Source: Microvirga brassicacearum (GTDB taxonomy: Bacteria > Pseudomonadota > Alphaproteobacteria > Rhizobiales > Beijerinckiaceae). Taken from it: a stretch of DNA of 64,000 nucleotides. A program made the translations under genes and the position numbers. The notes under the pieces were generated by a model. That model saw only the letters and a list, made by a program, of their open reading frames with translations, was not told the origin of the DNA and did no database searches. How positions within the stretch are numbered: the first letter of the stretch is position 1; every line of letters starts with the position of its first letter. Location: contig NZ_VCMV01000025.1 of the NCBI RefSeq assembly GCF_008757455.1, forward strand, positions 634 to 64,633, written 5' to 3'. Below, in pieces: positions 18,065 to 53,649 of the stretch.

Positions 18065-18086
18065 CAGAGAGACGGGATCCACGAGC

Positions 18087-19970: not shown

Positions 19971-20148
19971 CGAGCCATTGCGGCTGCCACCATGGAGAGC
20001 CGAGCCCGGCGGAAGTGGCGGCATCAGAACGCATTCCACGTCTGTTCCCACGCCTTCTCCCACGATGGCGCCTCCGCATGTGTTCTATCACCGAACGGAC
20101 AGAGTTGCGTCCCGCGCCGCGCTTTCCCGGCGGCGCAAGGAGGATCGG

Positions 20149-38593: not shown

Positions 38594-38616
38594 TCGAGCG
38601 CATCAGCGGCGCTCGA
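38594..38616. terminator. Possible hairpin between hutX and the following convergent gene
   Basis: TCGAGCGC (38594-38601) pairs with GCGCTCGA (38609-38616) over 8 bp with a 7-base loop, 25 bp after the hutX stop. It overlaps the last codons of the leftward gene and has no T-tract; termination is possible only. Confidence 0.3.
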
Positions 38617-39682
38617 GTCTTTCGCGCAAGGCCTGCATGTCCTTGTAGACCGCTTCAAGATCGCTGACGTGGAATCCCCTCGCGAGCTCGGGTGAGTGGG
38701 CCCTCAACGCGTCGTGCAGCTCTCCCGTATACCGGGCGGTTCCGTCCGGTTCGACGACGAGGCCCTTCTCCGCCTCGAAGGCGCTGTTCCAGGCGATCGC
38801 TTCTTTCCAAGGCAAGTTCGGCGGGAGATCGAGATCAAGCGCGCCGTCCCGCAACCGAACCGGGTAGCCGCCAGGAAGGCCGTTAGGACCAGGGGCGTGA
38901 CCCTCCCACGGGTCATCCTGGGCCAAGGCAAGGACCAGGGGGACGCCGCTTGCACCGGAAATGTCGATGACAGGCTCCGGCGTAAGTTTTACATCCGTGA
39001 ATTCGCCATAGACGTCGGGGATCTCGCGCCCATCGATCCAGACGCGCGGCGGCTTCCCCGCGCGCTCGCTCGCCTTCGCCCTGAACGGCGCGAGATTCTG
39101 GTAATGCGCCAGAAGTTTAATGCGATCACGATCGATCTGGTGAGCGCCGGCAAAAACTGCCGACAGGATGGCGACATTTCCCATGCCGCTGACGACAGCG
39201 TGCCCCGACGAAGTAATGATGCCATTGACCACATCGGGGAACGAACAGTTGATCAATGCGATCGCCCGCCCGCTTGCTGTGATCGCATGAGCAACACGGG
39301 ACGAAATCAGCGCCTGTGAGACAGCCGTGGCGCTCAAGCCACCCTTGCGAACCAGATCAGACCATGCGTCGCCCGTCGTCGCGATAACAGCCGAAGTCTG
39401 GACGGACGCTGCCTGGACGATCACCTTCGGCTCGGTTTCTGCGATCATTCGCGCCGGCGCCGCAGGTTCAAGGAGATCAACTTCCAAACCGCGAAAGCGG
39501 GCAGGACAGCCAAAGATCGATGCTCGGGCATTTGCTGCCGTCACGAGCCAGTTCAAGCGTTCCCGATTGCGCCCGGCGATGACACCCTCGACGGGCTTCT
39601 TCGCGGTAGCGGCGATATCGAAGACGATACGAGCGGCGAAGCTGCCAGTTCCGGAGACCAGCACGTCACATGATTCGACCAT
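38603..39682 (-). CDS. Rossmann-fold protein of unknown function (catabolic operon)
   Basis: A 359-residue protein. The N-terminus (VLVSGTGSFAARIVFDIAATA) is a nucleotide-binding-like strand-turn-helix followed by an Arg-rich second strand (GVIAGRNRERLNWL), suggesting NADP(H) use, then IVQAASVQTSA and ALINCSFPDVVNG. The C-terminal half has LPGGYPVRLRDG. It resembles saccharopine-dehydrogenase-like or opine-type reductases in overall pattern, but no family is confidently recognised. ATG at 39682 has GGAGAAG upstream. It is the last gene of the leftward IclR-linked operon, so it probably acts on the same substrate or an acid derived from it. Confidence 0.7.
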   Translation of the reverse strand: MVESCDVLVSGTGSFAARIVFDIAATAKKPVEGVIAGRNRERLNWLVTAANARASIFGCPARFRGLEVDLLEPAAPARMIAETEPKVIVQAASVQTSAVIATTGDAWSDLVRKGGLSATAVSQALISSRVAHAITASGRAIALINCSFPDVVNGIITSSGHAVVSGMGNVAILSAVFAGAHQIDRDRIKLLAHYQNLAPFRAKASERAGKPPRVWIDGREIPDVYGEFTDVKLTPEPVIDISGASGVPLVLALAQDDPWEGHAPGPNGLPGGYPVRLRDGALDLDLPPNLPWKEAIAWNSAFEAEKGLVVEPDGTARYTGELHDALRAHSPELARGFHVSDLEAVYKDMQALRERLERR

Positions 39683-39731
39683 CTCTCTTCTCCTGCCGAT
39701 ACAAGCTCTTATCGCTATTGCCTCAGTGAAA

Positions 39732-41261
39732 TTAACGCGACGCCATCCGATCCCAGCAATCGTCGCTGCGTGTCGAGAGCTTGTGCTTCATGATGCGTTG
39801 GCTGACCGTGCGCTCGAATTCGTCGACCACCGCGATGTAGCGGGGGTTCTGGTAGGGCGCGAGCCTCTCGCCAAGCCACGCCGACATCTTTTCGGGATCG
39901 ACGCGATGACCAGCCTTCGGCTTTACGAAGAGCTTGATGTCCTGTTCGCCGATATCCGTTGAAACGCCCACCATCGCGCAATCCTCCACATCCGGGAAAT
40001 CCGCAGCCACGTGCTCGACCTCCCAGGCCGAGACGTTCTCGCCACGGCAACGCACGCTGTCGGTCATGCGACCATGGAAGTAAAGGTTTCCCTGATCGTC
40101 GAACGATCCGAGATCGCCGGTGTAAAGAGCCCCACCACGCAACGTCTTCGCGGTCGCCTCCGGGTTGTCGAAATAGCCGGGGAACAAAGCTCCTTTTCGG
40201 GAGGTGCGAACGACGATCTCACCGCGCTCGCCGATCGGTACCCGGGCGCCGGTTTCATCCAGAAGCTCGACAGTGAACCACGGCATGGGTCGACCGACAG
40301 AGCCGACGAGGCCGGTGTTGTTATAGGTGGTGATGCTCGAAGCTTCCGTCATGCCATAGCATTCGCGGATCTGGATGCCGAAACGGTCCTGGAATTGGCC
40401 CCATACATCCGGTGGGCAGCCGCCGCCCCACGCAATCTTGACGCCGTGCTTACGGTCGAGGTCCGATGGCGGCTGTTTCAGGAGAATTTGCAGAATTCCG
40501 CCGAGGTGGTGGATATGCGTGGCGCCTTCCGCAACCGTCTGTTGCCAGAAGCGGCTGGCGCTGAAGCGATCGACCATGGCAAGGCGAATGTTACGAATCA
40601 TCGGCAATGGCAGGAGTTGCGCACCGCCAATATGATAAAGCGGCTCCCACACGAAAAAGACGTCCCCCGGCGTGGCGGCTGAGACGAGGCCGACAGCTTC
40701 GCTCGCTAGACGCAGCATCCTGTGCGACACGACGGCGCCTTTGGGGCGGCCTGTCGTTCCCGATGTGTACATGATCGCAAACGGAGCATCGGCAGCAGGC
40801 GTTCGCTCGGAAAACGCGGATGTTCCTCGAAGCGCATCCGCGAGCGAGTCGGATATTGCATCGGTGTCATTGACAAGAACGGGAGGCGCCGGATTCCCCA
40901 GAGCTTCCCGCGCGAGCGGTGCGAGATCGGCGTCAGCTATCACCAGACCGGGACGAGAATGTTCCAGAAGGTACCGCAGGCCTTCTCCCCGCTGCTGAGC
41001 GTTGACCGGAATCCACACGATGCCAGCCTTTGCGAGTCCAAAAATAGCCGAGAGCGCCGGAACGCTGTTACGCATCATGACGGCGACGTGATCGCCCGGC
41101 CGATAACCCTCGCGGCGAAGGAAAGCCGCGAAAGCCGACGACTCGCGATCGAGTTGCGCGAACGTGATCGGGTCGCCGTTGAACTTCGCATAGATCCCTT
41201 CGGGATCGGCCACGGCGCGAGCATGGAGCAGGTCGACAAAACCTTCATCGTCGAATGTCAT
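39732..41261 (-). CDS. AMP-forming acyl-CoA ligase (crotonobetaine/carnitine-CoA ligase-like)
   Basis: A 509-residue ANL enzyme. The P-loop-like A3 motif IMYTSGTTGRPKGAV, A5 ECYGMTEASS, A7 YTGDLGSFDDQGNLYFHGRM, and the C-terminal hinge with RCRGENVSAWEVEH are all visible. The catalytic C-terminal Lys is replaced or uncertain in TVSQRIMKHKL. It activates a carboxylic acid as an acyl-AMP then acyl-CoA. With the enoyl-CoA hydratase upstream in the operon it would feed a CoA-dependent degradation of the imported compound. Substrate is unknown; similarity to CaiC-like ligases is by motif impression only. Confidence 0.9.
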   Translation of the reverse strand: MTFDDEGFVDLLHARAVADPEGIYAKFNGDPITFAQLDRESSAFAAFLRREGYRPGDHVAVMMRNSVPALSAIFGLAKAGIVWIPVNAQQRGEGLRYLLEHSRPGLVIADADLAPLAREALGNPAPPVLVNDTDAISDSLADALRGTSAFSERTPAADAPFAIMYTSGTTGRPKGAVVSHRMLRLASEAVGLVSAATPGDVFFVWEPLYHIGGAQLLPLPMIRNIRLAMVDRFSASRFWQQTVAEGATHIHHLGGILQILLKQPPSDLDRKHGVKIAWGGGCPPDVWGQFQDRFGIQIRECYGMTEASSITTYNNTGLVGSVGRPMPWFTVELLDETGARVPIGERGEIVVRTSRKGALFPGYFDNPEATAKTLRGGALYTGDLGSFDDQGNLYFHGRMTDSVRCRGENVSAWEVEHVAADFPDVEDCAMVGVSTDIGEQDIKLFVKPKAGHRVDPEKMSAWLGERLAPYQNPRYIAVVDEFERTVSQRIMKHKLSTRSDDCWDRMASR

Positions 41262-41284
41262 CGGAGTCTCTCGAAGTATTCAAA

Positions 41285-43045
41285 TCAAGCCGAACGGCGG
41301 AAGCGTTCGGCGAGAAGGAGGAGGGTGGTCACGAGCACGAACACGACCACGGATACGGCCGCCAGCGTCGGGTTCAGCTGAAGGATCATGTCGTCCCACA
41401 TTTGCTTGGGCAGGGTGGTTTTCAGCCCACCACTGACGAAGATCGCGATCGTCAACTCGTCGAAGGAGGTGATGAATGCAAACAGGAATGCCGCAATCAA
41501 TCCGCCTTTTATCATGGGGATTGTGACCGACACCAAAGTCCGGACACGACTTGCGCCGAGTGTTGCGGCGGCTTGGTCCAGTCGCATGTCGTAGTTCTTC
41601 AGCACCGCGGAGATCGCCACGAGCGTGAAGGGGACCGCCAGAACGGTATGGCCGATCACAAGTCCTGTATTGGACGCCACCAGGCCGATCTGCGCAAAAA
41701 GATAGAACATGCCGACGGCAATGACGATGCGTGGGACAATCATCGGAGCGAGAAAGAACGCGAAGATGAGACCGCTCCAACGGCTCCGGCTGTTGGCAAG
41801 CGCAAGGGCAGCAAACCCGCCGATTGCCGTCGCGACGATCGCCGTAGCGAAAGCGACGCCGAAAGACCGCAGCGTTGCCGAAGTCCATAATGGTGAAGAA
41901 AAATAGGTTCCAAACCAACGCATGGAATAGCCAGGCGGCGGGAATTCCAGGAACTCTGAACTTGTGAATCCCATCGGAAGAACCAGGAGGGTCGGCACCA
42001 CAAGAAATGCGATGATCGACCAACACACGATCGGCAGGAACAGGGCCGTGATCTTCTTCCCGAACAGCAGCCTGGCCGCAGCAGCGATGCGGGAGGCGAG
42101 GGCGGCGACGATCTCCAAGACCTTCAACCCGATCAGGCGGATGCGACCGGTCGATTCGACCACCGCGCCACCTGAGATCGTGGAGATGCCGAAAATGCGA
42201 TCGTAGATCCAGCAAGCAAAGAGGGCGGTCACCAGCATCATGGCAGCGAGAGCGCCCGCGAAGGGCCAGTTCAGCAACTCGGAAACCTGGGTGATGATGA
42301 GTTGTGCCAACATCGTTTCCTGCCGCCCACCGAGGAAGGCCGGAACAATGAAGAAGCCGAGGGACGAGATGAAGACGAGCAGCCCGGCCGCCGTCACGCC
42401 CGGCAACGAGAGCTTGAAATAAACCAGCCAGAACGCGTGCGCCGGGCTCGATCCGAGCGTTTGCGCCGCGGATACCAGCCGACGATCGATGCTCGTCATA
42501 ACCGGGAGCATGGTCATTGCGGCGAGGGGAACCATGGCGTGAACCATACCCACCATCACGCCGAACTCGTTGTGCAGCAGCGGGAGCGGCTCGGCGACGC
42601 CGGAGCCGAGCAACAGGTTGTTGATGACGCCGCTGCGTCCGAGGATGATCATCCAGGCGAATGTCTTGACAAGGTAGCTTGTCCAGAACGGGATCATGAC
42701 GAAAAGAAGCATGCGGTTGCGAAACCGCTCGGGCAGCCCGGCGATCCAATAGGCGAGGGGGTAGCCGATCAGCAGGGAAAGGAGCGCGGTGTTGCCGGCA
42801 ATCTTGAAAGTGATGCCGAGCACCCGAAGGTAGACATCGGTGTTCGCGATGCGCGCGAACGAGGCGATGCTCCAACTGCCGGTTTCCGTATCTGTCACGC
42901 TAAGAAAGAGAAGGCTCGCCACCGGATAGGCGAAGAAGATCAGCAGAAATGCGAGACCGGGAACAGCCAACCAGAGCGGGTGTGCACGCAGAAACCTGCC
43001 TTTCAACACGCTTCTTCTGGGCTGCGAGGCGACGAGGGTGCTCAT
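41285..43045 (-). CDS. ABC transporter permease, fused PotB-PotC-type double domain
   Basis: A 586-residue permease with both membrane domains in one chain. Residues about 25-285 are a PotB-like domain, with its EAA loop at 192-216 (SAAQTLGSSPAHAFWLVYF), and residues about 330-580 a PotC-like domain with EAA loop at 490-514 (QAAATLGASRVRTLVSVTI). Linker about 285-330 is hydrophilic-poor. In most genomes these are two genes. It would form the import channel for a polyamine-like or related cation, with the ATPase encoded upstream. ATG at 43045 overlaps the ATPase gene end by 4 bp. Confidence 0.92.
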   Translation of the reverse strand: MSTLVASQPRRSVLKGRFLRAHPLWLAVPGLAFLLIFFAYPVASLLFLSVTDTETGSWSIASFARIANTDVYLRVLGITFKIAGNTALLSLLIGYPLAYWIAGLPERFRNRMLLFVMIPFWTSYLVKTFAWMIILGRSGVINNLLLGSGVAEPLPLLHNEFGVMVGMVHAMVPLAAMTMLPVMTSIDRRLVSAAQTLGSSPAHAFWLVYFKLSLPGVTAAGLLVFISSLGFFIVPAFLGGRQETMLAQLIITQVSELLNWPFAGALAAMMLVTALFACWIYDRIFGISTISGGAVVESTGRIRLIGLKVLEIVAALASRIAAAARLLFGKKITALFLPIVCWSIIAFLVVPTLLVLPMGFTSSEFLEFPPPGYSMRWFGTYFSSPLWTSATLRSFGVAFATAIVATAIGGFAALALANSRSRWSGLIFAFFLAPMIVPRIVIAVGMFYLFAQIGLVASNTGLVIGHTVLAVPFTLVAISAVLKNYDMRLDQAAATLGASRVRTLVSVTIPMIKGGLIAAFLFAFITSFDELTIAIFVSGGLKTTLPKQMWDDMILQLNPTLAAVSVVVFVLVTTLLLLAERFRRSA

Positions 43046-44121
43046 GGAACCAATGCCGCCACGTCTTTGTCCCAACTTGCCGAGATGGTGTCGCCCATGC
43101 GCGGCACGCTCTGGCCCGGAGGGAGGCGAAGGATGATCTCGTGACCGTCGGTCAGTTGAGCGATTACGCGCGTTTCGGACCCGGCATAGACGATCTCCTT
43201 GACGGAGCCGCAGAGGGTGTTGGGGGAATCGGCACCAATTCTGAGGTGCTCAGGCCGAACCACCAGGCCGCCGCCTTCTCCGTTTGTTGCAATGCCTTCG
43301 GGTAAATAAAACGCGCCGTGGGGTGTCACCAACTTCGTCCCGCCGCCATTGCGCTCGAAGGTGCCGCGGAGGATATTGGAGATGCCGATGAAATCGGCGG
43401 CGAACGCCGAGCGGGGACGCATATAGATATCGTGCGGCGTGCCGAGTTGCTCGATGCGGGCGTGATTCATCAGGCAGATGCGGTCAGAGAGTGCGAGCGC
43501 TTCCTCTTGATCGTGCGTCACGTAGATGATCGTTGCGCCGCTTTCGCGATGCAAACGTTTGATCTCGATCTGCATGTGGTCGCGCAACTTCTTGTCCAGC
43601 GCGCCGAGCGGTTCGTCCATCAGAATGATGGACGGCTGGTAGACGAAGCATCGGGCAAGTGCCACGCGCTGCTGCTGCCCGCCTGAAAGCTCACGCGGGA
43701 AACGCGCCGAGAGATGGCCGAGATGGACCATATCCAGCGCGTCCGAGACCCGAGTCTTGATCTCGGCCGCCGGTTGCCTGCGCATCTTCAATGGAAACGC
43801 GATGTTCTCGGACACCGTCAAATGCGGAAACAGGGCGTAGTGCTGAAAGACCAGCCCGATGTCACGCTGATAGACGGGAGTGTCCGACTGATCCTGCCCG
43901 TCGATGAAGACCTTTCCTTCTGTCGCTTCGACGAGACCGCAGACGAGTTGGAGCAGGGTCGTCTTGCCGGACCCCGAGGGTCCGAGCAGCGTCAGAAATT
44001 CGCCGCTCGGAACACTCAGTTGCGTGGGTTCGAGTGCCGCGACCTTGCCGTATCGCTTGCACAGGCCCTCGACCACGAGCTTCGGTGGCGCAAGGCCAGT
44101 TGAGGTCGAATTTTTCGCCAC
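43042..44121 (-). CDS. ABC transporter ATP-binding protein (PotA-like)
   Basis: A 359-residue ATPase. Walker A LLGPSGSGKTTLLQ, Q-loop LVFQHYALFPHLTV, signature ELSGGQQQRVALAR, Walker B SIILMDEPLGALDKKLRD and H-loop VTHDQEEALAL are intact; a C-terminal TOBE-like domain (VVRPEHLRIG) fits the spermidine/putrescine or iron ATPase subfamily. GTG at 44121 is chosen, as AGAGGA precedes it and the upstream in-frame portion overlaps the binding-protein gene. It energises the fused permease. Confidence 0.93.
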   Translation of the reverse strand: MAKNSTSTGLAPPKLVVEGLCKRYGKVAALEPTQLSVPSGEFLTLLGPSGSGKTTLLQLVCGLVEATEGKVFIDGQDQSDTPVYQRDIGLVFQHYALFPHLTVSENIAFPLKMRRQPAAEIKTRVSDALDMVHLGHLSARFPRELSGGQQQRVALARCFVYQPSIILMDEPLGALDKKLRDHMQIEIKRLHRESGATIIYVTHDQEEALALSDRICLMNHARIEQLGTPHDIYMRPRSAFAADFIGISNILRGTFERNGGGTKLVTPHGAFYLPEGIATNGEGGGLVVRPEHLRIGADSPNTLCGSVKEIVYAGSETRVIAQLTDGHEIILRLPPGQSVPRMGDTISASWDKDVAALVP

Positions 44122-44135
44122 CGGAATTCCTCTTG

Positions 44136-45203
44136 TTACGACAGAAGCCAACTGTTGAAGCGCTCGGTGACGGCGGATCGATTGGCGCTCCACCAATCCT
44201 CGTTGGCGATAGCCATCTTCTTCAGGTTCTCCTGCGACGTCGGCAGGTTCGCGGCGCGAGCGGCCGGGATGGTCTTGTAGGCATCGAGATTGGTCGGGCC
44301 GTAAGCCAGGATCTCCGTGAAGATTGCCTGCCGTTCGGCGTCGCTACAGAACCTGACAAACTGTCGGGCCACATCGGCGCGCGGGCAGCCCTTTGGAATA
44401 CTCCATCCTTCGAGAGAATAGAGGCCTTGGTTCCACACGATCTTGGCCGGCGTGCCGCCGTCGATTGCCGCCTGGAAACGGGCGTTCCAGCCGGAAATGA
44501 TGTCGACTTCGCCACTTTGCAGAAGCTGGGTCGATTGCGCGCCACCCGTCCACCACACCGCGATATGCGGCTTGATGGCGTCGAGCTTCTTGAAGGCACG
44601 CTCGATGTCGAGTGGGTAAAGCTTGTCGAGGGGAACGCCGTCAGCGAGTAAAGCCTGTTCGAGCGAGTCGATCGGGTTTTTGCGGAGGGAGCGACGACCG
44701 GGAAACTTCTGGACGTCGAAGAAATCGGTCCAACTCGTGGGAGGATTCTTTACGCGATCGGTGCGATAGGCGAAGACCGTGGAATAAACGTCTGTTCCCA
44801 TCCAGTTCGACGAGATTGCTTCCGGCATCAGCTGCGGGACGTCCGCATGGCTGAAATCGATGGGCTCTAACAAGCCTTGCTTGGTCAGAATGTCTCGTGC
44901 AGAAAGCGTCAGCGTGCAGACGTCCCATGTGTAGGACTTCGTATCGACCATTGCCTTGAACTGCGCGGTCGGTTCGGCTTCGCGAGCGACGTTGACGATC
45001 TTGTTGCCGGTGGCTTTTTCAAAAGGATCGTAGAACGCCTTGCGAAAAGCCGGCCCGAATGGCCCGCCCGGATCAGCAACGGTCAACTGCGTTGCCGCAT
45101 GAGCACGACCGATCAAGGCCGGCGCTCCGATCCCTGCGACAGCCATGCCGCCGGCTGCGGTCAGCAAACCGCGACGAGTCAGCTCGAACGATTTTTTCGT
45201 CAT
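44136..45203 (-). CDS. ABC transporter substrate-binding protein (PotD-like), Tat-type signal
   Basis: A 355-residue periplasmic binding protein. The N-terminus has a twin-arginine motif (ELTRRGLLTAAGG) and a hydrophobic core, ending AHAA, so Tat export is likely. The mature part has the PotD/spermidine-like pattern (AVWWTGGAQSTQLLQSGEVDIISGWNARF). It delivers substrate to the fused permease and PotA-like ATPase. It is the first transporter gene after the enoyl-CoA hydratase. The ligand is not necessarily a polyamine. Confidence 0.93.
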   Translation of the reverse strand: MTKKSFELTRRGLLTAAGGMAVAGIGAPALIGRAHAATQLTVADPGGPFGPAFRKAFYDPFEKATGNKIVNVAREAEPTAQFKAMVDTKSYTWDVCTLTLSARDILTKQGLLEPIDFSHADVPQLMPEAISSNWMGTDVYSTVFAYRTDRVKNPPTSWTDFFDVQKFPGRRSLRKNPIDSLEQALLADGVPLDKLYPLDIERAFKKLDAIKPHIAVWWTGGAQSTQLLQSGEVDIISGWNARFQAAIDGGTPAKIVWNQGLYSLEGWSIPKGCPRADVARQFVRFCSDAERQAIFTEILAYGPTNLDAYKTIPAARAANLPTSQENLKKMAIANEDWWSANRSAVTERFNSWLLS

Positions 45204-45268
45204 GTCCTCTTCCTCTCTCTTCTGCAGATCGTGCCTGCTTTCCCTCGGTCGATTGGGTGGAAACGTCT

Positions 45269-46039
45269 TCAGCCTTTCCTTGCCGCTCGTTTAGCCAGGA
45301 ATTCTTCCATCATTCGGGCCGGCTCGCCGGTGGCATAGGCTTCGCGCTGGTTGCGGATGCCGGCCGCCAGACAGTCACGAAATCCGGCCTCGGTGACTTC
45401 GCGGAAACGCTGACGGTTCAGCCGCATCGCAACGGGAGGCTTGGTTGCGAGGTCCGACGCGAGGGCGAGCGCCTCGCTCATCACGTTCTCCTTGGGAACC
45501 ATGCGGTTCATGACGCCAATTCTAACACATTCGTCCGCGTCCATCATGCGGCCGGTCAGCGTCAGGTCGATGGTGCGGCCGAGGCCGATGATCTCGCGCA
45601 TGATCCAGGGGCCAGTGGTGCTTGCGATCCCCGAATTGATCTCGGGCTGGCCCATGGTGACCCCCGCATGACCGATGCGGATGTCACAGAGGAGCGCGAC
45701 CTGGAAGGCGGAACCTGCAGCCACGCCGTTGAGTGCGGCGACAATCGGCTTCGAAAGCGATCGGATGCGCGTGTAAAGCCGCTCCCATTCGCCGATCCAC
45801 AATTCGGCGCGGTCAGGATCGAACGTCTTCGTTTCGTTGAGATCCTGTCCAGCCCCGAAGGCCCGGTCGCCGGCACCGGTGAGGATAACCGCACGGACGG
45901 CCTCGTTAGCCTCCATGGCGTCGAACGCTTCCACAAGCTGAGAGCGCATTTCGGCATTCCAGGCGTTCAGAACTTCCGGTCGGTTGAGCGTCACCACCCC
46001 GACCGCGCCGCGAATTTCGCTCAGGACCATTTGAGCCAT
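45269..46039 (-). CDS. Enoyl-CoA hydratase/isomerase family protein
   Basis: A 256-residue crotonase. AVILTGAGDRAFGAGQDLNETKTF contains the oxyanion-hole region and KPIVAALNGVAAGSAFQVALLCDIRIG the second; the catalytic Glu pair of classical hydratases is not both visible, so hydratase, isomerase or another crotonase reaction is possible. It is the first gene of the leftward operon. ATG at 46039 has AAGGAAA upstream; an upstream in-frame extension (to 46138) runs across the candidate operator and is rejected. Confidence 0.92.
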   Translation of the reverse strand: MAQMVLSEIRGAVGVVTLNRPEVLNAWNAEMRSQLVEAFDAMEANEAVRAVILTGAGDRAFGAGQDLNETKTFDPDRAELWIGEWERLYTRIRSLSKPIVAALNGVAAGSAFQVALLCDIRIGHAGVTMGQPEINSGIASTTGPWIMREIIGLGRTIDLTLTGRMMDADECVRIGVMNRMVPKENVMSEALALASDLATKPPVAMRLNRQRFREVTEAGFRDCLAAGIRNQREAYATGEPARMMEEFLAKRAARKG

Positions 46040-46062
46040 GGTGGGTTTCCTTCCGACAGTTC

Positions 46063-46079
46063 TTATTGCATTCCAATAA
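46063..46079. promoter_or_regulatory. Candidate IclR operator, copy 1
   Basis: TTATTGCATTCCAATAA is an inverted repeat (TTATTG-N5-CAATAA) in the 116-bp divergent region between the enoyl-CoA hydratase and iclR genes. It matches the site at 47021-47037 at 14 of 17 positions. A second smaller dyad, ATTGAACAAT (46085-46094), lies next to it. Confidence 0.6.
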
Positions 46080-46155
46080 AATCTATTGAACAATCGGTCG
46101 AGTCGATTGTCAACGAGTTTCCGCAACGTTACCGACACGGCCGACAGGGGGACCC

Positions 46156-46971
46156 ATGCGGGCGGACACGAAAATCAAGTCGCGGGTCGCGACGAAAACA
46201 TCGACACGCGCAAAGAGCGCGGACCCCTTGATGGTGATGTCGGTGGAGAAGGCGTTCAGGGTGTTGTCGGCCTTCGGGGGCCAGCAGAGGACCCTGAGTC
46301 TGTCCCAGGTCGCGGCCGCCACGAAGATGGACGTAAGCTCCGCCCAGCGCTTCACCCACACGCTGATGCGGCTCGGCTACCTGCGCAAGGACGGCGACAC
46401 GAAACGGTTTGAGCTGACGCCCAGGACTCTCGATCTAGGTTATTATTTCTTGAGCGGGCAACGGCTGGTGAACGTGGCGATGCCCTACCTGATGCACCTG
46501 AGCAAGGAAACCGAGGAGACGGTCAACCTTACGCTTCTCGACGACACGCAGATCATCTTCGTGTCGCGCTTCATGAGCCGGCACATGCTGAATACTGATG
46601 TCGTCATAGGAACCCGGATGCCGGCCTATTGCACTGCACCGGGCATCGCGATCCTTTCGCGTCTGCCAGAGGACGAGGCGATGAGCATCGTCGATCGGTC
46701 CGATCTCGTCCCGCACACGGCGTTTACAACCTGGCAACGGGACGACGTGCTGGCGAAACTCCGCGCTTCAGCCAAACAGGGATATGCGACCGCCTTCGAG
46801 GAGTTTTATCTCGGCGATGCCTCGGTGGCGGCGCCGATCCTCGATGCCGGGGGAAGGCCGCAAGGAGCGGTCAACGTGGCCGTCTCCTGCTCGCGCTACT
46901 CGCGCGAGGACGTGATCCTCCGTTTCGCGCCCCTGGTGGTAGCCGCGGCCCGTGCAATTTCGGGGGCTTGA
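46156..46971 (+). CDS. IclR-family transcriptional regulator
   Basis: A 271-residue regulator. Residues about 30-95 are the winged helix-turn-helix (VEKAFRVLSAFGG, LSLSQVAAATKMDVSSAQRFTHTLMRLGYL), and residues about 105-260 the ligand-binding IclR domain (TVNLTLLDDTQIIFVSRF, RMPAYCTAPGIAILSRL, AAPILDAGGRPQGAVNVAVS). ATG at 46156 follows AGGGGG. It sits between two divergent operons that share a palindromic site, so it is the likely regulator of both, with the transported compound or a catabolite as ligand. Confidence 0.94.
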   Translation: MRADTKIKSRVATKTSTRAKSADPLMVMSVEKAFRVLSAFGGQQRTLSLSQVAAATKMDVSSAQRFTHTLMRLGYLRKDGDTKRFELTPRTLDLGYYFLSGQRLVNVAMPYLMHLSKETEETVNLTLLDDTQIIFVSRFMSRHMLNTDVVIGTRMPAYCTAPGIAILSRLPEDEAMSIVDRSDLVPHTAFTTWQRDDVLAKLRASAKQGYATAFEEFYLGDASVAAPILDAGGRPQGAVNVAVSCSRYSREDVILRFAPLVVAAARAISGA

Positions 46972-47019
46972 CGGCGCAGCTTGACGGGTTGTCAGAAGAA
47001 ATACCAATGTATGACAATT

Positions 47020-47038
47020 GTTATTGCAATACGATAAC
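47020..47038. promoter_or_regulatory. Candidate IclR operator, copy 2
   Basis: GTTATTGCAATACGATAAC, with GTTAT/ATAAC arms, lies 35 bp upstream of the (2Fe-2S) protein start. Its 17-bp core (47021-47037) is related to the site at 46063-46079. Position just ahead of the rightward operon suggests direct control by the IclR protein. Confidence 0.6.
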
Positions 47039-47072
47039 TTGAGCCCGTCTGAGGACTAGCAAAGGATAGGCG

Positions 47073-47414
47073 ATGCCGAGGATGGGCGCTGCTTCCATGG
47101 ACGAACGACCAGGATTGTTTGTCCGCGCGGTTGACCGGGACGGGGGCTCGATCGAGTTCACTATCGACGGCTCTCCCATGACAGCGCGTGCGGGCGATTC
47201 TCTCCTCGCGGCAATCCTGACGAACGCATCACTCCTCCGGCGGCTGGAATTCGGCGGAGAGCCCCGAGCAGGCTTCTGCCTGATGGGAGCGTGTCAGGAT
47301 TGTTGGGTTTGGCTGGATGACGGCCGACATGTGCGGGCATGCACAACGGCGGCTGTCGCCGGACTTGGCGTGCGCACCACGCCTCCGGCACTGGCGGAAA
47401 TCAGGAATGTCTAA
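47073..47414 (+). CDS. (2Fe-2S) small subunit, HcnA/SoxA-alpha-like
   Basis: A 113-residue ferredoxin-like subunit. The cysteine pattern FCLMGACQDCWVW...RACTT supplies four cysteines for a [2Fe-2S] cluster. It corresponds to the small subunit of HcnABC, opine-oxidase or D-hydroxyproline-dehydrogenase-type heterotrimeric oxidases (HcnA, LhpF-like) and passes electrons from the flavoproteins. It is the first gene of the rightward operon, 35 bp after the palindrome, and overlaps the next gene by 8 bp. Confidence 0.9.
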   Translation: MPRMGAASMDERPGLFVRAVDRDGGSIEFTIDGSPMTARAGDSLLAAILTNASLLRRLEFGGEPRAGFCLMGACQDCWVWLDDGRHVRACTTAAVAGLGVRTTPPALAEIRNV

Positions 47415-48774
47415 CGTCGTGGTGGTCGGCGGCGGCCCTGCTGGCATCCGGGCCGCCTGCATGCTCGCGGCCCACCGGCTGCGGCCGGTTTTGCTTGATG
47501 AGGCGAGGAATGTCGGCGGCCAAGGCTATCGTGCGCCTTCGCCGGGCCTGAGGCTCGATATGGACGCGCTGATGGGAGGCGAGGCTGCCAAGTACCACGC
47601 GCTGCAAGCCGCCTTCGCGTCGATCCGCGACCAAATCGAATATCGGCCAGGCACCCTCGTATGGGCCATAGAGGGAAAGACCCTTCATGTGGCGACCGAT
47701 GAGGGTTCGTCGACCGTTTCGTTTGATGCTCTCATTCTTGCGACCGGAGCGATGGACCGCATCATGCCGCTGCCGGGCTGGACATTGCCCGGCGTCTTCG
47801 CTCTTGGCGGCGCGCAGGTTAGCCTGAAGGACCAGGGTTGCTTCATCGGTCGCCGCGTTGCCTTCTGCGGCTCATCGCCGTTGCTTAACCTGGCGGCGTT
47901 GCAGTATCGGAAGTTGGGAGCCGACGTCGTCGCCGTCTGCGATACGACGCCGCTCGGGGCCAAGGTGAGGGCAGCGCCACAACTCGCCGCCGCGCCGCGG
48001 ACGATGATGCGGGGCATATCCTATCTCACATCGTTAATGCGCGCGGGCACCCCGATGCTGCACGGGGTGACACTGCTCAGGATCGAGGGCAAATCCCGTG
48101 TCGAAGCCATCATCGTGCGCGACTGCCGTGGGCGCGAGCGGCGTTTTGCCTGCGATGCGGTCGCATTGGGTTACGGCTTGAAACCAGAGGCCCAACTGGC
48201 GGAGCTGGCGGGTGCAGAGATGCGGTTCGACGCGACATCGAGACTGTGGCTGCCGAAGATCGACGCTGATGGACGTGCTGGGCGTTCACTCTATCTGGCA
48301 GGAGACAGCGTTGTTATCGGCGGTGCGGATGCGGCCGAAGCCAGTGGTGAACTTGCGGCCCGAGCCGTCCTGTCCGATCTCGGAATAGTGCACGCTCGCA
48401 GCGTTGCGCGCGGTTTGCGGCGGCGGGTATTTCGCTTGCGCCGGTTCCAGCGCGCTCTCGCCCGCGCCTTTGTGTGGCCTGCAAATCGCGTCAAAGATCT
48501 CAGTGACGATGTCGCGCTTTGTCGTTGCGAGAATGTGAGCGTCGGCGAGATCCGGCGGGCCATGGATCAGGCGCTTGGCCCCATCGAGGTCAACCGCGTC
48601 AAGGCCATAACGCGGTGCGGCATGGGGCGCTGCCAGGGACGCGTCTGCGGGCCCGCACTCCAGGAACTGGTTGCCAGCCATGCGGGTATTCCGATCGAGG
48701 CTGCGGGCCGTCTGCGCGTTCAAGCGCCGGTCAAGCCGATCCCGCTCTCGGTTGCAAGGACTCTGGCAGAATGA
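47407..48774 (+). CDS. FAD/NAD(P)-type oxidoreductase subunit with C-terminal Fe-S domain, HcnB-like
   Basis: A 455-residue flavoprotein. VVVGGGPAGIRAACMLAAH is the FAD motif and GGQGYR follows; a second dinucleotide motif region is around RVAFCGSSPLLNLAAL. The C-terminal domain (about 385-440) has a BFD/[2Fe-2S]-type pattern CRCENVSVGEIRRAM...CGMGRCQGRVCG. This matches HcnB, OoxA or LhpE-like subunits of heterotrimeric amino-acid/opine-oxidising dehydrogenases. Overlaps (8 bp and ATGA) couple it to neighbours. Confidence 0.92.
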   Translation: MSNVVVVGGGPAGIRAACMLAAHRLRPVLLDEARNVGGQGYRAPSPGLRLDMDALMGGEAAKYHALQAAFASIRDQIEYRPGTLVWAIEGKTLHVATDEGSSTVSFDALILATGAMDRIMPLPGWTLPGVFALGGAQVSLKDQGCFIGRRVAFCGSSPLLNLAALQYRKLGADVVAVCDTTPLGAKVRAAPQLAAAPRTMMRGISYLTSLMRAGTPMLHGVTLLRIEGKSRVEAIIVRDCRGRERRFACDAVALGYGLKPEAQLAELAGAEMRFDATSRLWLPKIDADGRAGRSLYLAGDSVVIGGADAAEASGELAARAVLSDLGIVHARSVARGLRRRVFRLRRFQRALARAFVWPANRVKDLSDDVALCRCENVSVGEIRRAMDQALGPIEVNRVKAITRCGMGRCQGRVCGPALQELVASHAGIPIEAAGRLRVQAPVKPIPLSVARTLAE

Positions 48775-49943
48775 CCCGGCTTATCGCCGATGTTGCAGTG
48801 CTGGGCGGCGGTCTGATCGGCTCATGGACGGCCTATTTTCTCGCACGTCGCGGCAAGCGCGTCGTATTGATCGAGAAGGGTGTTGTCGGCGCGCAATCGA
48901 GTGGCACGAATTTCGGGAATCTGAGGTTGCAGGGCCGGTTTCCCGGCCAATACCCCCTCTCCCTTCGTGCCCAGGATCTGTGGGAACGGCTTGAGGATTT
49001 GATCGGCGATTCCTGCGAGTTCGACGCCACGGGGCACCTGTATTGCGCATTCGACGAGGCGGAACGGGATAAGATAGATCATTACGCGGAAGTGTCGGAA
49101 TCATACGGCATTCGTATCGAGCATCTTGATCGAGCTCAGCTGAAACGTCGTTTTCCCTGGCTCGGCAGGAAGGTCATCGCCGCCACCTATTCGGCGCGAG
49201 ACGCGACAGCGAACCCGCGGCTCGTCACGCCGGCCGTCGCGCGCGTCGCGAAGTCCTTGGGCGTTACGGTGGTTGAACATTGCGCCGTTCGGGAGGTGCG
49301 AAAATCCGGCGACACATTCCATGTCGATACCGACACCGACCTTCAGGTGGAATGCGGTCACGTGGTCAATGCCGCCGGTGCGTGGGCGCTTGAATTCGCC
49401 GAACGGTTCGGGGAGACGGCGCCGCTCTTCCCCGCGGGACCGCCGCAATTCGTCACCGAACCTTTCCCCTATTTCATCACGCCATCCGTGCAGACGGTCG
49501 ACGGCTCGGTCATTGCGCGGCAGATCCCGCGCGGAAACGTCATCCTCGCGGGTTACCCGCGGACGGCAGCGGACCCAATCCTCAATCGAGCGCCGGTCCC
49601 GCCGGTCAAGACACTTGCGGCGATGGAATGCCTTGCCGAAGTGGTTCCGGCCCTTCGATCATGTCATGTCATCCGCGTCTGGTCGGGCATCGAGGGATAC
49701 CTTCCGGACATGCTGCCGGTGATCGGACAGAGTGAGACGACGCCCGGTCTCATTCACGCGTTCGGCTTTTGCGGCCATGGATTCCAGATCGGGCCGGGCG
49801 TCGGTCTGTGCCTGAGTGAGATCATCGTCGATGGCCACACCGAAACGCCGCTTTCCCCTTTCGCGATCGGTCGGTTCCAGCAGGAGATTGAAGTGAGCGA
49901 CAAATTCAAGCGTGAATTCGATGCGGTGAGGAAGACTCCATGA
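48771..49943 (+). CDS. FAD-dependent DadA-like oxidoreductase subunit, HcnC-like
   Basis: A 390-residue flavoprotein of the D-amino-acid dehydrogenase/sarcosine oxidase superfamily. VAVLGGGLIGSWTAYFLARRG binds FAD, and the C-terminal IRVWSGIEGYLPDMLPVIG-type segment matches the family. It is probably the catalytic subunit of the three-subunit enzyme with the HcnA- and HcnB-like proteins, oxidising an amine C-N bond. ATG at 48771 overlaps the preceding stop (ATGA); a long upstream in-frame extension is a shadow of the HcnB-like gene. Confidence 0.92.
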   Translation: MTRLIADVAVLGGGLIGSWTAYFLARRGKRVVLIEKGVVGAQSSGTNFGNLRLQGRFPGQYPLSLRAQDLWERLEDLIGDSCEFDATGHLYCAFDEAERDKIDHYAEVSESYGIRIEHLDRAQLKRRFPWLGRKVIAATYSARDATANPRLVTPAVARVAKSLGVTVVEHCAVREVRKSGDTFHVDTDTDLQVECGHVVNAAGAWALEFAERFGETAPLFPAGPPQFVTEPFPYFITPSVQTVDGSVIARQIPRGNVILAGYPRTAADPILNRAPVPPVKTLAAMECLAEVVPALRSCHVIRVWSGIEGYLPDMLPVIGQSETTPGLIHAFGFCGHGFQIGPGVGLCLSEIIVDGHTETPLSPFAIGRFQQEIEVSDKFKREFDAVRKTP

Positions 49944-51196
49944 CGCTTCGCGTCGCCGTCATCGGCGCTGGCATCGTCGGTGCGATTTCCGCCCTCGAGG
50001 CGGTGCGCGACGGCCATCATGTCATCATCATCGATCCTGATTCTCCGGGAGGCGAACAGGCCGCCAGCTACGGCAACGCCGCGTGGATATCCGAGGGGAC
50101 GGTGCTTCCGGTCTCGACGCCCGGCTTGTGGCGCAAGATCCCCGGCTATCTTCTCGATCCGGAAGGTCCATTCTCGATCCGCTGGAGCTATCTTCCGAAA
50201 GTCCTGCCTTGGCTCATCCGGTTCGTACGTGCCGGATCGACGGTCTCGAAAGTCCAGGCGACAGCTCGTGCGCGAAGGACGCTGGTCGCGACGGCCATAT
50301 CACGTTACCGCGCTCTCGCCGATGAGGCCGGCCTCAGCCATCTTCTCCATCATCGCGGGCTTCTCTACGTCTACCCGTCACGCACCGACTTCGAAGCGGA
50401 GGCGCTTGAGTGGCGGTTGCGTCGTGAACTCGGCTTAACCTGGGATGAATTGGATGGCCCGGCGCTGCGTCGGTTCGAACCGGGTCTTGGTCCGGCCTAC
50501 GGTTTCGGCGCGCTACTCAAAGACGGAGCCAATCTGTCGGATCCGGGCGCGTTCGTTGCTGGCATCGTGAAACACGCCGTAAGTCTCGGGGCGACACTCC
50601 TGCGGGCGCGTGCCACAGATTTTCGTGTCGAAGGCGAACGCCTTGTGGCAGTTACCACCGACGACGGAGAGGTCTCCTGTAATCGGGCGCTCATCTGTGC
50701 GGGTATTCACTCCAAGGAGCTGGCGCACAAGGCCGGCGACGCAGTGCCGATCGAGAGCGAGCGCGGCTATCACGTCGTGGTGGCTGATCCGGAATACGTG
50801 CCTCAGCATCCGGTCATGCCAAGCGACGGCAAGATGGGATTGACCATGACAGACAGTGGCTTGCGCGTCGCCGGCCAGGTCGAACTGGGTGGCATAAAAG
50901 CGGCGCCGGACTGGCGGCGCGCTGAAATTCTGCTCGATCATCTGGCGCGTGTCTTCCCCTCGATCGAGCGCGACCCGGCACGCATCAAGCGATGGATGGG
51001 GCATCGACCTTCGACGCCGGATGGGCTGCCTTGCATCGGGCCCTCGACCGCCTGCGCGGATATCCTCCATGGCTTCGGGCACGGGCACAGCGGCATTTGC
51101 ATGGCGCCCGTTTCGGCGCGACTGCTGGTCGATCTGGCCGGCGGAAAAAGCCCGGCCATCGACCCGAAGCCTTTCTCTGTTCGGCGGTTCCGATGA
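49940..51196 (+). CDS. FAD-dependent DadA-like oxidoreductase (additional copy)
   Basis: A 418-residue flavoprotein. AVIGAGIVGAISALEAVRDGHHVIIIDPD is the FAD site, with EQAASYGNAAWISEG after it and WMGHRPSTPDGLPCIGPS and LHGFGHGHSG at the C-terminus, typical of DadA-type D-amino-acid dehydrogenases. It is a second family member in the same operon and may act on a related substrate or an alternative stereoisomer. Coupled by ATGA overlaps on both sides. Confidence 0.93.
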   Translation: MTLRVAVIGAGIVGAISALEAVRDGHHVIIIDPDSPGGEQAASYGNAAWISEGTVLPVSTPGLWRKIPGYLLDPEGPFSIRWSYLPKVLPWLIRFVRAGSTVSKVQATARARRTLVATAISRYRALADEAGLSHLLHHRGLLYVYPSRTDFEAEALEWRLRRELGLTWDELDGPALRRFEPGLGPAYGFGALLKDGANLSDPGAFVAGIVKHAVSLGATLLRARATDFRVEGERLVAVTTDDGEVSCNRALICAGIHSKELAHKAGDAVPIESERGYHVVVADPEYVPQHPVMPSDGKMGLTMTDSGLRVAGQVELGGIKAAPDWRRAEILLDHLARVFPSIERDPARIKRWMGHRPSTPDGLPCIGPSTACADILHGFGHGHSGICMAPVSARLLVDLAGGKSPAIDPKPFSVRRFR

Positions 51197-52173
51197 GAGA
51201 CGATCAAACTTTCCTCTACCTCAATGCGGCCGATATCGCCGCCATCGACCTTGATCCGAACGAGGCCCGCGAGGCCGTCCTGGAGGCGTTCCGCGCCCAC
51301 CACGAGAAGCGGATCATAGCCAAGCCGAAACTGACCCTTGAAATCGGCCCGGGCCATTCTTTCCAGACGCTCTGTTCCGCGTGGGAAGAGTCAGGCTTCG
51401 CGGCGAACAAATGGCTCGGCATGGCCCCCGCTTCGCCGAGCTCAGAACTGCCCGGCATTCACGCGGTGATCGCTCTGAACGATTTTGCCAGTGGTCGCCT
51501 CGTCGGATTGCTCGACGGCAATGTGATCACCGCTGTCCGGACCGCAGCCATGTCTGCTGCGGCGGCGCAATACCTGGCCCTGCCGACAAGCCGCACATTG
51601 GGTCTGATTGGATGCGGCCTGCAGGCGCGCTTCCACATCGCCGCCATGAAAGCGGTGCTTCCCGGTTTGTCCGAGATCAGGGCCTACAGCCGGACCCGTC
51701 GTTCGGCCGAAGCTCTCGTCCAGGAGGCGCAAGAGAGCGGATGGAACGGAACCGTCAGTGACGACGCGGAGACGGCAATCCGCAACAGCGATGTCATTGT
51801 GACGACTGTTCCGATGAGTTCGGGCCTCGCGCCGTTTCTGGATCCGGCCTGGCTCGCACCCGGCTCCTTCCTGTCGGCGGTCGATATCGCGCGTTCATGG
51901 CAGCCGCACGATCTTCGGCGATTGGAAATCCTGGTAACTGACGATCACGCACAGCAGCACGAAAGCCCGCCGATCTCGCCGGAACTCGGTCGCATCGGCA
52001 GCTTCGATGCCGACCTTGCCGAGTTGGCGAGCCAAGCCAAACCCGGTCGCGCAGACAACGAGCAGCGCGCCATGTTCATTTTCAGAGGCGTCGGTCTCGC
52101 GGATCTTGCCGTCGCCGCGCGTGTCTTTGCCGCCGCCGAGGCCAAGTCCATCGGCCAACGGCTCATCCGTTGA
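51193..52173 (+). CDS. Ornithine cyclodeaminase/mu-crystallin family protein
   Basis: A 326-residue NAD(P)-dependent enzyme. ALPTSRTLGLIGCGLQARFHIAAMKA is the cofactor motif and GNVITAVRTAAMSAAAAQYLA the conserved Arg region. In this family members are ornithine cyclodeaminases or ketimine (for example pyrroline-2-carboxylate) reductases, and both fit downstream of imino-acid-forming oxidases. No conclusion on which is possible. ATG at 51193 overlaps the DadA stop; the long upstream frame is spurious. Confidence 0.92.
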   Translation: MRDDQTFLYLNAADIAAIDLDPNEAREAVLEAFRAHHEKRIIAKPKLTLEIGPGHSFQTLCSAWEESGFAANKWLGMAPASPSSELPGIHAVIALNDFASGRLVGLLDGNVITAVRTAAMSAAAAQYLALPTSRTLGLIGCGLQARFHIAAMKAVLPGLSEIRAYSRTRRSAEALVQEAQESGWNGTVSDDAETAIRNSDVIVTTVPMSSGLAPFLDPAWLAPGSFLSAVDIARSWQPHDLRRLEILVTDDHAQQHESPPISPELGRIGSFDADLAELASQAKPGRADNEQRAMFIFRGVGLADLAVAARVFAAAEAKSIGQRLIR

Positions 52174-52212
52174 AACGCGGGGCAAATCTGCCTCGCAGCC
52201 ACTAGAGGCAGC

Positions 52213-53649
52213 ATGAAGACAGACGATCAACTCTCAAGCATCGATCCGGCACCGTCTTCGTGGTGGTTCGATGACGCCCTGAGGCAGGAGGCGGGATCGC
52301 CCACAGCTTCGGCACTGGCGGGCCACCTCAATGTGGACGTGGTCATCGTCGGGGGCGGTTATACCGGGCTCTGGACTGCGCTCGCACTCAAAGAGCGCCG
52401 ACCGTCTCTCAGTGTCGCGCTAATCGAAGCGTCGCTCTGTGGCGCAGGGGCGAGTGGCAAGAACGGCGGCAAGGTCCATGGTTATTGGGCCTCGCTTCCT
52501 GGCATGGAAACATCGATCGGGCCGGATGCAGCCCTCGCAGTCGCTCGGGCCGGCACGCGCGCGCAAGATGGCATTCGTACTTTCGCGACGGCGCCGGGAC
52601 GCGATGTCTGGTGGCGGGAGAGCGGCAACCTGCGCGTTTCCGCCGCTCCGGCGCAGGATTCCAAAATCTCGAATCTGGTTGAGACGGCGCGCCGCCTCGG
52701 CGTAGGCGATACGGCGATTGCCCTGACGGTCGAGGAACTCGCATCCCGATGCCGCTCGCCGGCATTCCGGGCTGGGATTTACTTTCCTGAAGGTGCGAAC
52801 GTGCACCCGGCGCGGCTTGCGCGCGCGCTTCGAGCGGCGGCAATTGCCGCGGGCGTCAGCATTTTCGAAAATACGCCGATGCTCAAATTGGAGCGCGCGG
52901 CGCCGAACCGGATCGTGACACCGCAGGGACAGATCATTGCCCGGGACGTCGTGCTCGCTACCAATACGGAACTCGCGGTCGATCCCGAAATCAGACCCCA
53001 CGTGAGCGTATTCTCAAGCTATGCGCTCATGACCGAGCCAGCGCCAGAGCAGCTGGCCGACATCGGCTGGACTGGCGGCGAAGGAATCGCCGACCTGCGC
53101 ATGTTCATCCACTATTTTCGAACAACCCGGGACGGGCGAGTTCTGATGGGGTCGGGCTCCGGCCCGATCAGCTATGGTGGGAATACGCATGATCCGGCAC
53201 TGACGAACGACCGCGCCTCCGCGGCCCGCGCCGAACGGGGATTGCGGCGTCTCCTGCCGGCACTGAATCACACGCGTGTCGCCCGTGTGTGGGGCGGGGC
53301 GATCGATGTATCGGCGGACAGGTTGCCGTTCTTCCGAACCATGCCTCGGAGCCGGGTCCATTACGGCTGCGGCTATTCGGGGCATGGGGTGAATGCAACC
53401 TATATCGGCGGACAATGCCTCGCGTCCCTCGTGTTGGACGAAAGAGACGAATGGGCGATGCTTCCGCTCTGCACGCGTAAGATACCTGCTCTACCTCCGG
53501 AGCCATTCCGCACCCTTGGCGGGCGCGCCGTAAGATGGGGAATTCTCGCCTGCGAGGAAGCGGAGGAAAACGAACGGAAAGGTCCGATCCACGCGCGAGC
53601 GGTCGCGTTGCTGCCGCGTTTGCTCGGCATGCGCATCGGCACCCGCTAG
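52213..53649 (+). CDS. FAD-dependent oxidoreductase, PuuB-like
   Basis: A 478-residue flavoprotein of the gamma-glutamylputrescine oxidase type. VVIVGGGYTGLWTALALKERR binds FAD, followed by ASLCGAGASGKNGGKVHGY; the C-terminal region has RVWGGAIDVSADRLPFFR and YGCGYSGHGVNATYIGG. It would oxidise a primary or secondary amine, producing an aldehyde or imine and H2O2. It starts 39 bp after the preceding gene and is probably the last of the operon. Substrate could be the imported amine itself. Confidence 0.92.
   Translation: MKTDDQLSSIDPAPSSWWFDDALRQEAGSPTASALAGHLNVDVVIVGGGYTGLWTALALKERRPSLSVALIEASLCGAGASGKNGGKVHGYWASLPGMETSIGPDAALAVARAGTRAQDGIRTFATAPGRDVWWRESGNLRVSAAPAQDSKISNLVETARRLGVGDTAIALTVEELASRCRSPAFRAGIYFPEGANVHPARLARALRAAAIAAGVSIFENTPMLKLERAAPNRIVTPQGQIIARDVVLATNTELAVDPEIRPHVSVFSSYALMTEPAPEQLADIGWTGGEGIADLRMFIHYFRTTRDGRVLMGSGSGPISYGGNTHDPALTNDRASAARAERGLRRLLPALNHTRVARVWGGAIDVSADRLPFFRTMPRSRVHYGCGYSGHGVNATYIGGQCLASLVLDERDEWAMLPLCTRKIPALPPEPFRTLGGRAVRWGILACEEAEENERKGPIHARAVALLPRLLGMRIGTR

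Follow-up and report, generated by a model that had tools for sequence, protein, structure and literature searches.

The window analysed here is a 64,000-nucleotide stretch of Microvirga brassicacearum DNA (contig NZ_VCMV01000025.1, positions 634 to 64,633), part of a 5.2-Mb draft genome. Between positions 38603 and 53649 it carries thirteen genes in two divergent units, which together form a putative catabolic system combining an importer, a coenzyme A (CoA) ligase, a crotonase-family enzyme, flavoproteins and an IclR-family regulator (Table 1). The minus-strand unit encodes, in order, the crotonase, a substrate-binding protein, an ATPase, a fused permease, the CoA ligase and a Rossmann protein, here named ROSS. 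The plus-strand unit runs from IclR through a Fer2 subunit, HcnB, HcnC, DadA and an ornithine cyclodeaminase-family protein (OCD) to a PuuB-like flavoprotein. An operator-like palindrome lies in each of the two gaps that flank the IclR gene. The 21 open reading frames (ORFs) at 35292-57367 were scanned with Pfam and NCBIfam profiles; the matches verified all thirteen genes, and every gene class listed in a first-pass annotation of the window was found. The names Hcn, DadA and PuuB express likeness to families, and nearly all NCBIfam matches lie under their cut-offs.

Table 1. Genes and operator-like sites of the cluster, in window coordinates.
Feature	Coordinates	Strand	Basis or location
ROSS, 359-residue dehydrogenase-like protein without Pfam family, predicted lactate/malate-dehydrogenase fold	38603..39682	-	
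AMP-forming acyl-CoA ligase (LIG)	39732..41261	-	PF00501 2.1e-70
Fused PotB+PotC-type permease	41285..43075	-	two BPD_transp_1 stretches; PotB/PotH-like and PotC-like halves
PotA/PhnT2-like ABC ATPase	43042..44196	-	ABC_tran, TOBE_2
Substrate-binding protein, SBP_bac_8	44136..45203	-	Tat-type signal judged by eye
Crotonase-family enzyme (ECH)	45269..46138	-	PF00378 1.2e-46
Operator-like palindrome TTATTGCATTCCAATAA	46063..46079		crotonase/IclR gap
IclR-family regulator	46156..46971	+	PF01614, PF09339; PcaR/PcaU model 207 bits, cut-off 284.75
Second operator-like palindrome TTATTGCAATACGATAA	47021..47037		IclR/Fer2 gap
[2Fe-2S] small subunit, HcnA-like	47073..47414	+	Fer2_4 5e-24
HcnB-like FAD/NAD subunit with BFD-type [2Fe-2S] site	47407..48774	+	Pyr_redox_2, Fer2_BFD
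HcnC-like DAO flavoprotein subunit	48771..49943	+	PF01266 1.5e-70
DadA-like flavin dehydrogenase	49940..51196	+	PF01266; PRK00711 199 bits, cut-off 383
Ornithine-cyclodeaminase/mu-crystallin family protein (OCD_Mu_crystall)	51193..52173	+	PF02423 3.8e-43; PRK06141 128 bits, cut-off 322
PuuB/aminophosphonate-oxidoreductase-like DAO flavoprotein (Phn_aa_oxid)	52213..53649	+	TIGR03329 363 bits, cut-off 632.8

One IclR regulon is likely because the palindrome stands at both promoters and in most such gaps of related loci, and this part of the interpretation, taken alone, is highly probable. The two sites are candidate operators to which IclR would bind. Within the window, TTATTGCAATGCAATAA is matched with up to three mismatches at two places only, 46063-46079 and 47021-47037, on both strands at each, and shuffles average 0.06 matches. 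The exact form TTATTGN5CAATA occurs at a single place in the 5.2-Mb genome, 46063-46079. An inverted-repeat count found TATTG-N5-CAATA in 17 of 38 crotonase/IclR gaps, and in 20 shuffles no repeat was common to more than three. With up to two mismatches, TTATTG-N5-CAATAA was present in 24 of 30 crotonase/IclR gaps and in 20 of 29 IclR/Fer2 gaps, while the rest of the 689,274 bases held 10 occurrences. With equally many mismatches allowed, the reversed pattern matched 0 and 0 gaps of the two kinds (8 elsewhere) and the half-swapped pattern 0 and 2 (12 elsewhere). Genome scans matched the pattern in 10 of 11 genomes, and a backward control in three of these. Among ten plasmid clusters (L071-L080), a weaker site with up to two mismatches precedes the crotonase or ligase in six, namely L072, L074, L075, L076, L077 (two mismatches) and L079 (one mismatch); none was found at this limit before either gene in L071, L073, L078 and L080.

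Palindromes with one mismatch also occur in two genomes of the same genus, at 8362 in L157 and 8618 in L158, beside an RND-efflux-like operon (judged by eye) and a patatin-like gene, where they perhaps serve another regulator. These two, and an operator-like site near other genes in L160, were not counted as regulon members.

Gene order is conserved as well. Using ROSS as bait, 33 loci were gathered from named records. The ten-gene core, [HcnC-HcnB-Fer2-IclR] facing [crotonase-binding protein-ATPase-fused permease-CoA ligase-ROSS], keeps its order in 26 of them, including records of Microvirga, Bosea, Pseudolabrys, Salipiger, Roseovarius, Paracoccus and Neorhizobium; therefore, the association exceeds chance. 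The seven off-order loci differ in kind: L021 has crotonase, ligase and ROSS only, L034 is a short contig in which the importer is missing between crotonase and ligase, L040 carries the importer at the opposite end, and L042 and L043, from one Brucella oryzae record, are partial or broken. In L044 and L045, the core genes were not found at the limits used. Across 61 related genomes, orthologs of HcnC (at least 60% identity) occur in nine, of ROSS (at least 60%) in ten and of the crotonase (at least 72%) in 11, and the sets are nested, HcnC within ROSS within crotonase. The single system under one IclR proposed in the first-pass annotation is thus borne out by conserved order, by the palindrome at both promoters and by the co-occurrence of HcnC with ROSS; the opposite case, two unrelated neighbouring pathways, does not agree with the order of the core.

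The accessory genes (OCD, DadA and PuuB-like) belong to the system although their position shifts and their likeness is lower, because OCD and DadA come after HcnC in all eight fetched same-genus flanks and the PuuB-like gene (62-65% identity) comes after ROSS in seven of nine Microvirga loci. The distribution of the system is patchy, since ROSS relatives at any identity were found in 15 of 385 genomes drawn over the class; only three, the window genome included, reach at least 60%.

Further relatives carry part of the set. The fetched stretches of Azospirillum (L071), Ensifer (L072), Caballeronia (L077 and L080) and a same-genus genome (L159) contain IclR, crotonase, importer and ligase but neither ROSS nor the three-subunit oxidase. 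In the rhizobial clusters L074-L076, genes annotated as proC and ornithine cyclodeaminase family come after crotonase and ligase; in Shinella, the genes that come next encode a Zn-dependent alcohol dehydrogenase and a succinate-semialdehyde dehydrogenase. Because the CoA half occurs in relatives without oxidases nearby, it appears to be central to the pathway and not out of place. In distant clusters (L111-L119, crotonase 53-58%), importer, DadA, HcnB/C-like, OCD and DHDPS-like genes come in varied sets. In one of them, L115, an acetate-CoA ligase alpha-subunit-type protein, presumably ADP-forming and under all cut-offs, is encoded 8 kb from the crotonase. These clusters broaden the pathway class and do not reveal the substrate.

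Several gene sets of related composition were also observed. More distant alpha-proteobacterial clusters (L114-L117 and L120-L122) combine a crotonase and an importer of these types with varied DadA, HcnB/C-like, OCD and DHDPS-like genes, and also class II aldolase-like, trimethylamine-methyltransferase-like or FadH/OYE-like genes; some contain tandem crotonases, with Gln at the first catalytic position of one and Glu in the other. In the same-genus locus L161, crotonase, ligase and ROSS stand together but IclR, importer, oxidase and palindrome are missing; the neighbours are MmgE/PrpD-like and BKACE-like genes (weak to moderate blast matches) and genes that are nitrilase-like by eye. A Bosea metagenome-assembled genome (L014, 12800-17000) and two Sagittula plasmids (L048, 22388-26491; L070, 22389-26492) have, close to the main cluster, a second and related set made up of IclR (28-32%), ligase (41-42%) and crotonase (27-28%) genes, with operator-like palindromes in L014 at 12814, 16223 and 16331.

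The binding protein bears on the substrate class. Its nearest solved relatives are 4i1d, the agropine permease 6hly, the gamma-aminobutyric acid (GABA) sensors 9d57 and 6dgv, 4eq7, 3rpw and MotA (5l9g); 4eq7, titled as a polyamine protein, is taken here to be the GABA binder Atu4243. Spermidine/putrescine binders reach at most 91 bits, versus 223 for the best solved relative. The polyamine-type importer of the first-pass annotation can be refined in that the binder is nearer to agropine, GABA and mannopine proteins than to spermidine/putrescine binders. The GABA sensor site is reported to include W202, R205 and D228, the last bonding the amino group (PMC12999171). In a printed alignment, these residues fall on W239, R242 and E265, so that Arg242 and Glu265 correspond to the GABA-binding Arg205 and Asp228 of Pf622. 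The GABA, agropine and mannopine binders (9d57, 6dgv, 4eq7, 6hly and 5l9g) are of the same family, and the pocket Arg and acidic residue are kept here, with Glu in place of the Asp of the GABA sensor. The W, R and E are conserved in 40 of 40 homolog rows at about 56% identity or more (two rows being the same stretch), and 31 more distant rows have R in 31, E in 16 and D in 8. As far as sequence can assign a ligand, it is likely an amine-bearing carboxylic acid, because the Arg/acid pair of the GABA site is kept; the pocket does not fix chain length. An N-substituted or imino-type acid, as first suggested, is consistent with this pair and with the enzyme classes.

The CoA ligase scores best, among 107 NCBIfam models, with PRK06155 (360.9 bits versus a cut-off of 722). 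The crotonase has 4kd6 as its best solved relative (347.6 bits; the next reaches 147). Gln146 and Glu166 occupy its two catalytic positions, and all 56 homolog rows at 50% identity or more have this pair; thus, the canonical hydratase pair Glu144 and Glu164 of the rat enzyme is not complete, with Gln at the first position. Of four hydratase-type sequences aligned next to 4kd6, three (2pbp, 5z7r and 5xzd) have Glu/Glu, as does E. coli CaiD, and the fourth, 6sl9, has neither catalytic Glu. Most crotonases further away in the alignment have the Gln/Glu pair as well, so it is not specific.

ROSS, which the first-pass annotation had described as an unknown Rossmann protein, matched neither Pfam nor NCBIfam profiles at E <= 0.001, and that description can now be refined to a predicted lactate/malate dehydrogenase (LDH/MDH) fold. 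This comparison covers the fold families among the matches listed. Foldseek alone gave TM-scores near 0.5 and rmsd of about 5-12 among the rows shown, where two or three glycosidase-family chains (3u95, 7br4) stand among MDH and LDH ones. In hhalign, ROSS aligned with 25 alpha-proteobacterial MDHs at probabilities of 72-75 over 289 columns and with an SDR profile at 95 over 145. Profiles of OCD, ProC, HIBADH, octopine-DH-like proteins, crotonase, binding protein and DHDPS gave 0.1-2.5; the ProC, HIBADH, octopine-DH-like, DHDPS and SDR profiles were built from only 2-9 sequences. The nearly invariant His193 of ROSS lies near the MDH His without being aligned on it.

D-hydroxyproline dehydrogenase, octopine-nopaline oxidase and HcnABC are three-subunit flavoenzymes. 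Adjacent Fer2_4, Pyr_redox_2 with Fer2_BFD, and DAO subunits, in the same subunit order as in these enzymes, are present in the window cluster and retained in the 26 core-order loci. Unlike the known settings of HcnABC-class enzymes, this oxidase sits in a CoA-ligase/crotonase regulon. The OCD protein is probably a ketimine reductase, judging from a family whose PDB relatives include archaeal alanine dehydrogenase 1omo, thiomorpholine-carboxylate dehydrogenase 4bv8 and pyrroline-2-carboxylate reductase 6t3e.

Taken together, these features favour, tentatively and with somewhat less than even confidence, one IclR-controlled pathway in which an imported zwitterionic acid, bearing nitrogen on or close to its beta carbon, is cleaved in a CoA-dependent manner. 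Computation shows the gene content, the conservation of order, the two promoter palindromes, the Gln/Glu and Arg/Glu residue pairs and a predicted fold for ROSS; IclR binding, the substrate class, the order of the CoA steps, the bond cleaved and the roles of oxidases and reductases are parts that we infer, as follows. IclR would bind TTATTG-N5-CAATAA at both promoters. The binding protein would take up the zwitterion, with Arg contacting the carboxylate and Glu the ammonium group, and the ligase would form the CoA thioester of the imported acid. The crotonase may then break a beta-carbon bond, most likely C-N, converting a beta-aminoacyl-CoA into an amine or amino acid and an enoyl-CoA, as BvaB does for beta-valine, and the enoyl-CoA would enter beta-oxidation. 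Retro-Mannich C-C cleavage would be a close alternative at this step. HcnABC, DadA and the PuuB-like protein could oxidise the released amine or imino acid, or a D-configured or N-substituted one, with OCD and the LDH-fold protein reducing the resulting imine or keto acid; all of these enzymes would act on the nitrogen-bearing product or on the other stereoisomer. The precedent is the Bva pathway of Pseudomonas sp. SBV1 (BvaA/BvaB1/BvaB2), in which crotonase-family CoA-dependent ammonia lyases stand beside a CoA ligase and act on an amine-bearing acid (PMC4619459). The same combination, a CoA ligase and a crotonase-family enzyme in one gene set, is present here. A more specific version would be a new route. 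In it, the imported compound would be an opine-like N-substituted or ring beta-amino acid, which the Gln/Glu crotonase would split, after CoA activation, into acyl-CoA and an amino or imino acid; the amine half would be completed by the new LDH-fold family together with as many as three flavin dehydrogenases, and the CoA part would extend over Hyphomicrobiales, Rhodobacterales, Azospirillum and Caballeronia. As a whole, this version is somewhat unlikely.

Several points weigh against the favoured cleavage pathway and its single regulon. BvaB1 and BvaB2 keep both catalytic Glu residues, unlike the crotonase here, and BvaA resembles phenylacetate-CoA ligases, unlike the ligase here; the ORF table of the Bva paper, in the available text, names an amino acid transporter of another kind and no flavoproteins, OCD or IclR (PMC4619459). 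A rat-hydratase proline near position 170, said to be absent from BvaB, points neither way: the window crotonase has Ala172 and Ser173 in the two candidate columns, where Pro occurs in 21 of 56 homologs at the first column and 0 of 56 at the second, the numbering being uncertain by one. The GABA-type pocket pair leaves the position of the amine unfixed. Some relatives lack ROSS, HcnABC or the importer beside the crotonase. Identities between the window and its genus relatives (39-40% for DadA, 47-50% for OCD) fall below those of the core genes, so equivalence of these two proteins across the genus is a matter of position more than of sequence. The motif was derived from the crotonase/IclR gaps in which it was counted, which makes the 24 of 30 partly circular (the IclR/Fer2 gap was not used), and 10 of 34 records have no crotonase/IclR site, six with the gap but no site and four without a usable gap. 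The evidence throughout is computational.

The other explanations differ in the bond broken by the crotonase and in the order of steps. If the crotonase worked as a carboxymethylproline synthase in reverse, retro-Mannich C-C cleavage of a CoA ester with a ring nitrogen at its beta carbon would yield acetyl-CoA together with a cyclic imine, the latter a substrate for reduction by ProC, OCD or the LDH-fold protein. The CarB residues Gln111 and Glu131 are presumably the counterparts of the two hydratase Glu. CarB joins an enolate to a cyclic imine, and the studied Gln111 lies three places past the oxyanion-hole residue Met108 (PMC6542682); Gln146 has the same spacing, the comparison being one of spacing. 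The proC and ornithine cyclodeaminase family genes of the rhizobial clusters would suit this chemistry too. CarB, however, is biosynthetic and only a weak match (2a7k, 5.4e-24), the Gln/Glu pair is too common to be specific, and we know of no common natural substrate of the required shape, which leaves this explanation unlikely. In a different order, the flavoproteins would come first, dealkylating an opine-, betaine- or imino-type acid at its nitrogen or turning it into an imine; ligase and crotonase would afterwards process an unsaturated or hydroxy acid through plain hydration, along the lines of a carnitine/crotonobetaine-like or N-methyl amino acid pathway. CaiC-CaiD is, like the pair here, an AMP-forming ligase and crotonase acting on a zwitterionic acid; the ligase does match the CaiC model PRK08008, but far under its cut-off (242 of 651 bits), and the distant clusters include trimethylamine-methyltransferase-like (L114, 228.6 of 525 bits) and FadH/OYE-like (L121, 535 of 793 bits) genes. 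The Gln at the hydratase Glu144 position, where CaiD has Glu, and the Azospirillum, Ensifer and Caballeronia loci and the one same-genus genome with importer, ligase, crotonase and IclR but no flavoproteins nearby make this order improbable. The carnitine system as such was rejected on the missed CaiC cut-off and on Glu/Glu versus Gln/Glu.

Two pathways could also share one regulator, importer, ligase and crotonase serving one and flavoproteins, OCD and LDH-fold protein handling a stereoisomer or co-occurring imino acid. The CoA set found without the remaining genes nearby agrees with such a division, as do ROSS relatives (26-37%) in plasmids L049, L051 and L052 that lie near DAO-type flavoproteins without ligase or crotonase. 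It is nevertheless decidedly unlikely, given that all ten core genes stay together in 26 of 33 ROSS loci and that HcnC orthologs (at least 60%) were not found without ROSS among the 61 genomes. That the cluster is an ordinary opine or hydroxyproline pathway to which genes were added is highly improbable. In its favour, pathways of this kind do include an HcnABC-type oxidase, OCD and DadA, and agropine and mannopine binders are among the relatives of the binding protein. The Lhp/Hyp pathway, however, involves a DHDPS-type deaminase, an epimerase and an alpha-ketoglutarate semialdehyde dehydrogenase, and octopine/nopaline sets have arginase or opine-specific genes beside oxidase and OCD, with no CoA step; to our knowledge, neither scheme contains a CoA ligase or crotonase. 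Both were rejected, none of the three Lhp/Hyp partners and no arginase being among the 21 scanned ORFs, while CoA ligase and crotonase are present. A homarine lead was also dropped, the listed literature matches concerning other methylamines and choline.

Regarding gene boundaries, starts and stops overlap along the plus strand, as read from the sequence, at 47407/47414, 48771/48774, 49940/49943 and 51193/51196. Several of the listed ORFs appear to begin too early, and 47407 for HcnB, 48771 for HcnC and 51193 for OCD are more likely. The permease probably starts near 43045, and the ATPase ORF as given probably starts too early. For the crotonase, a start near 46039 is more likely because the longer ORF covers the palindrome. 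Directly past the low end of the cluster lie HutX (38006-38569) and a partial heme ABC ATPase match (37186-38058). Elsewhere in the window, one ORF (56129-57367) joins a CAP/YkwD domain to RTX calcium-binding repeats, another on the plus strand (57593-60199) has 868 residues and no Pfam match at E <= 0.001, and a third (18036-19970) unites a xylose-isomerase-like TIM barrel with an HPPD-like dioxygenase domain, adjoining a PLP-dependent decarboxylase ORF (19732-21645).

No published description of the gene combination, the palindrome or the ROSS family was found among the listings of an open-access literature search, most subscription papers lying outside the search; all enzyme classes but one are already known. 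The cluster represents a probable orphan regulon, in which a single regulator, candidate operator and importer go with a set of enzymes that is mostly constant. It supplies a context for ROSS, a family without a Pfam entry, and for the 4kd6 crotonase clade. As the regulon is common to soil, plant-associated and marine bacteria, it implies that some widespread natural compound has no catabolic route assigned to it.

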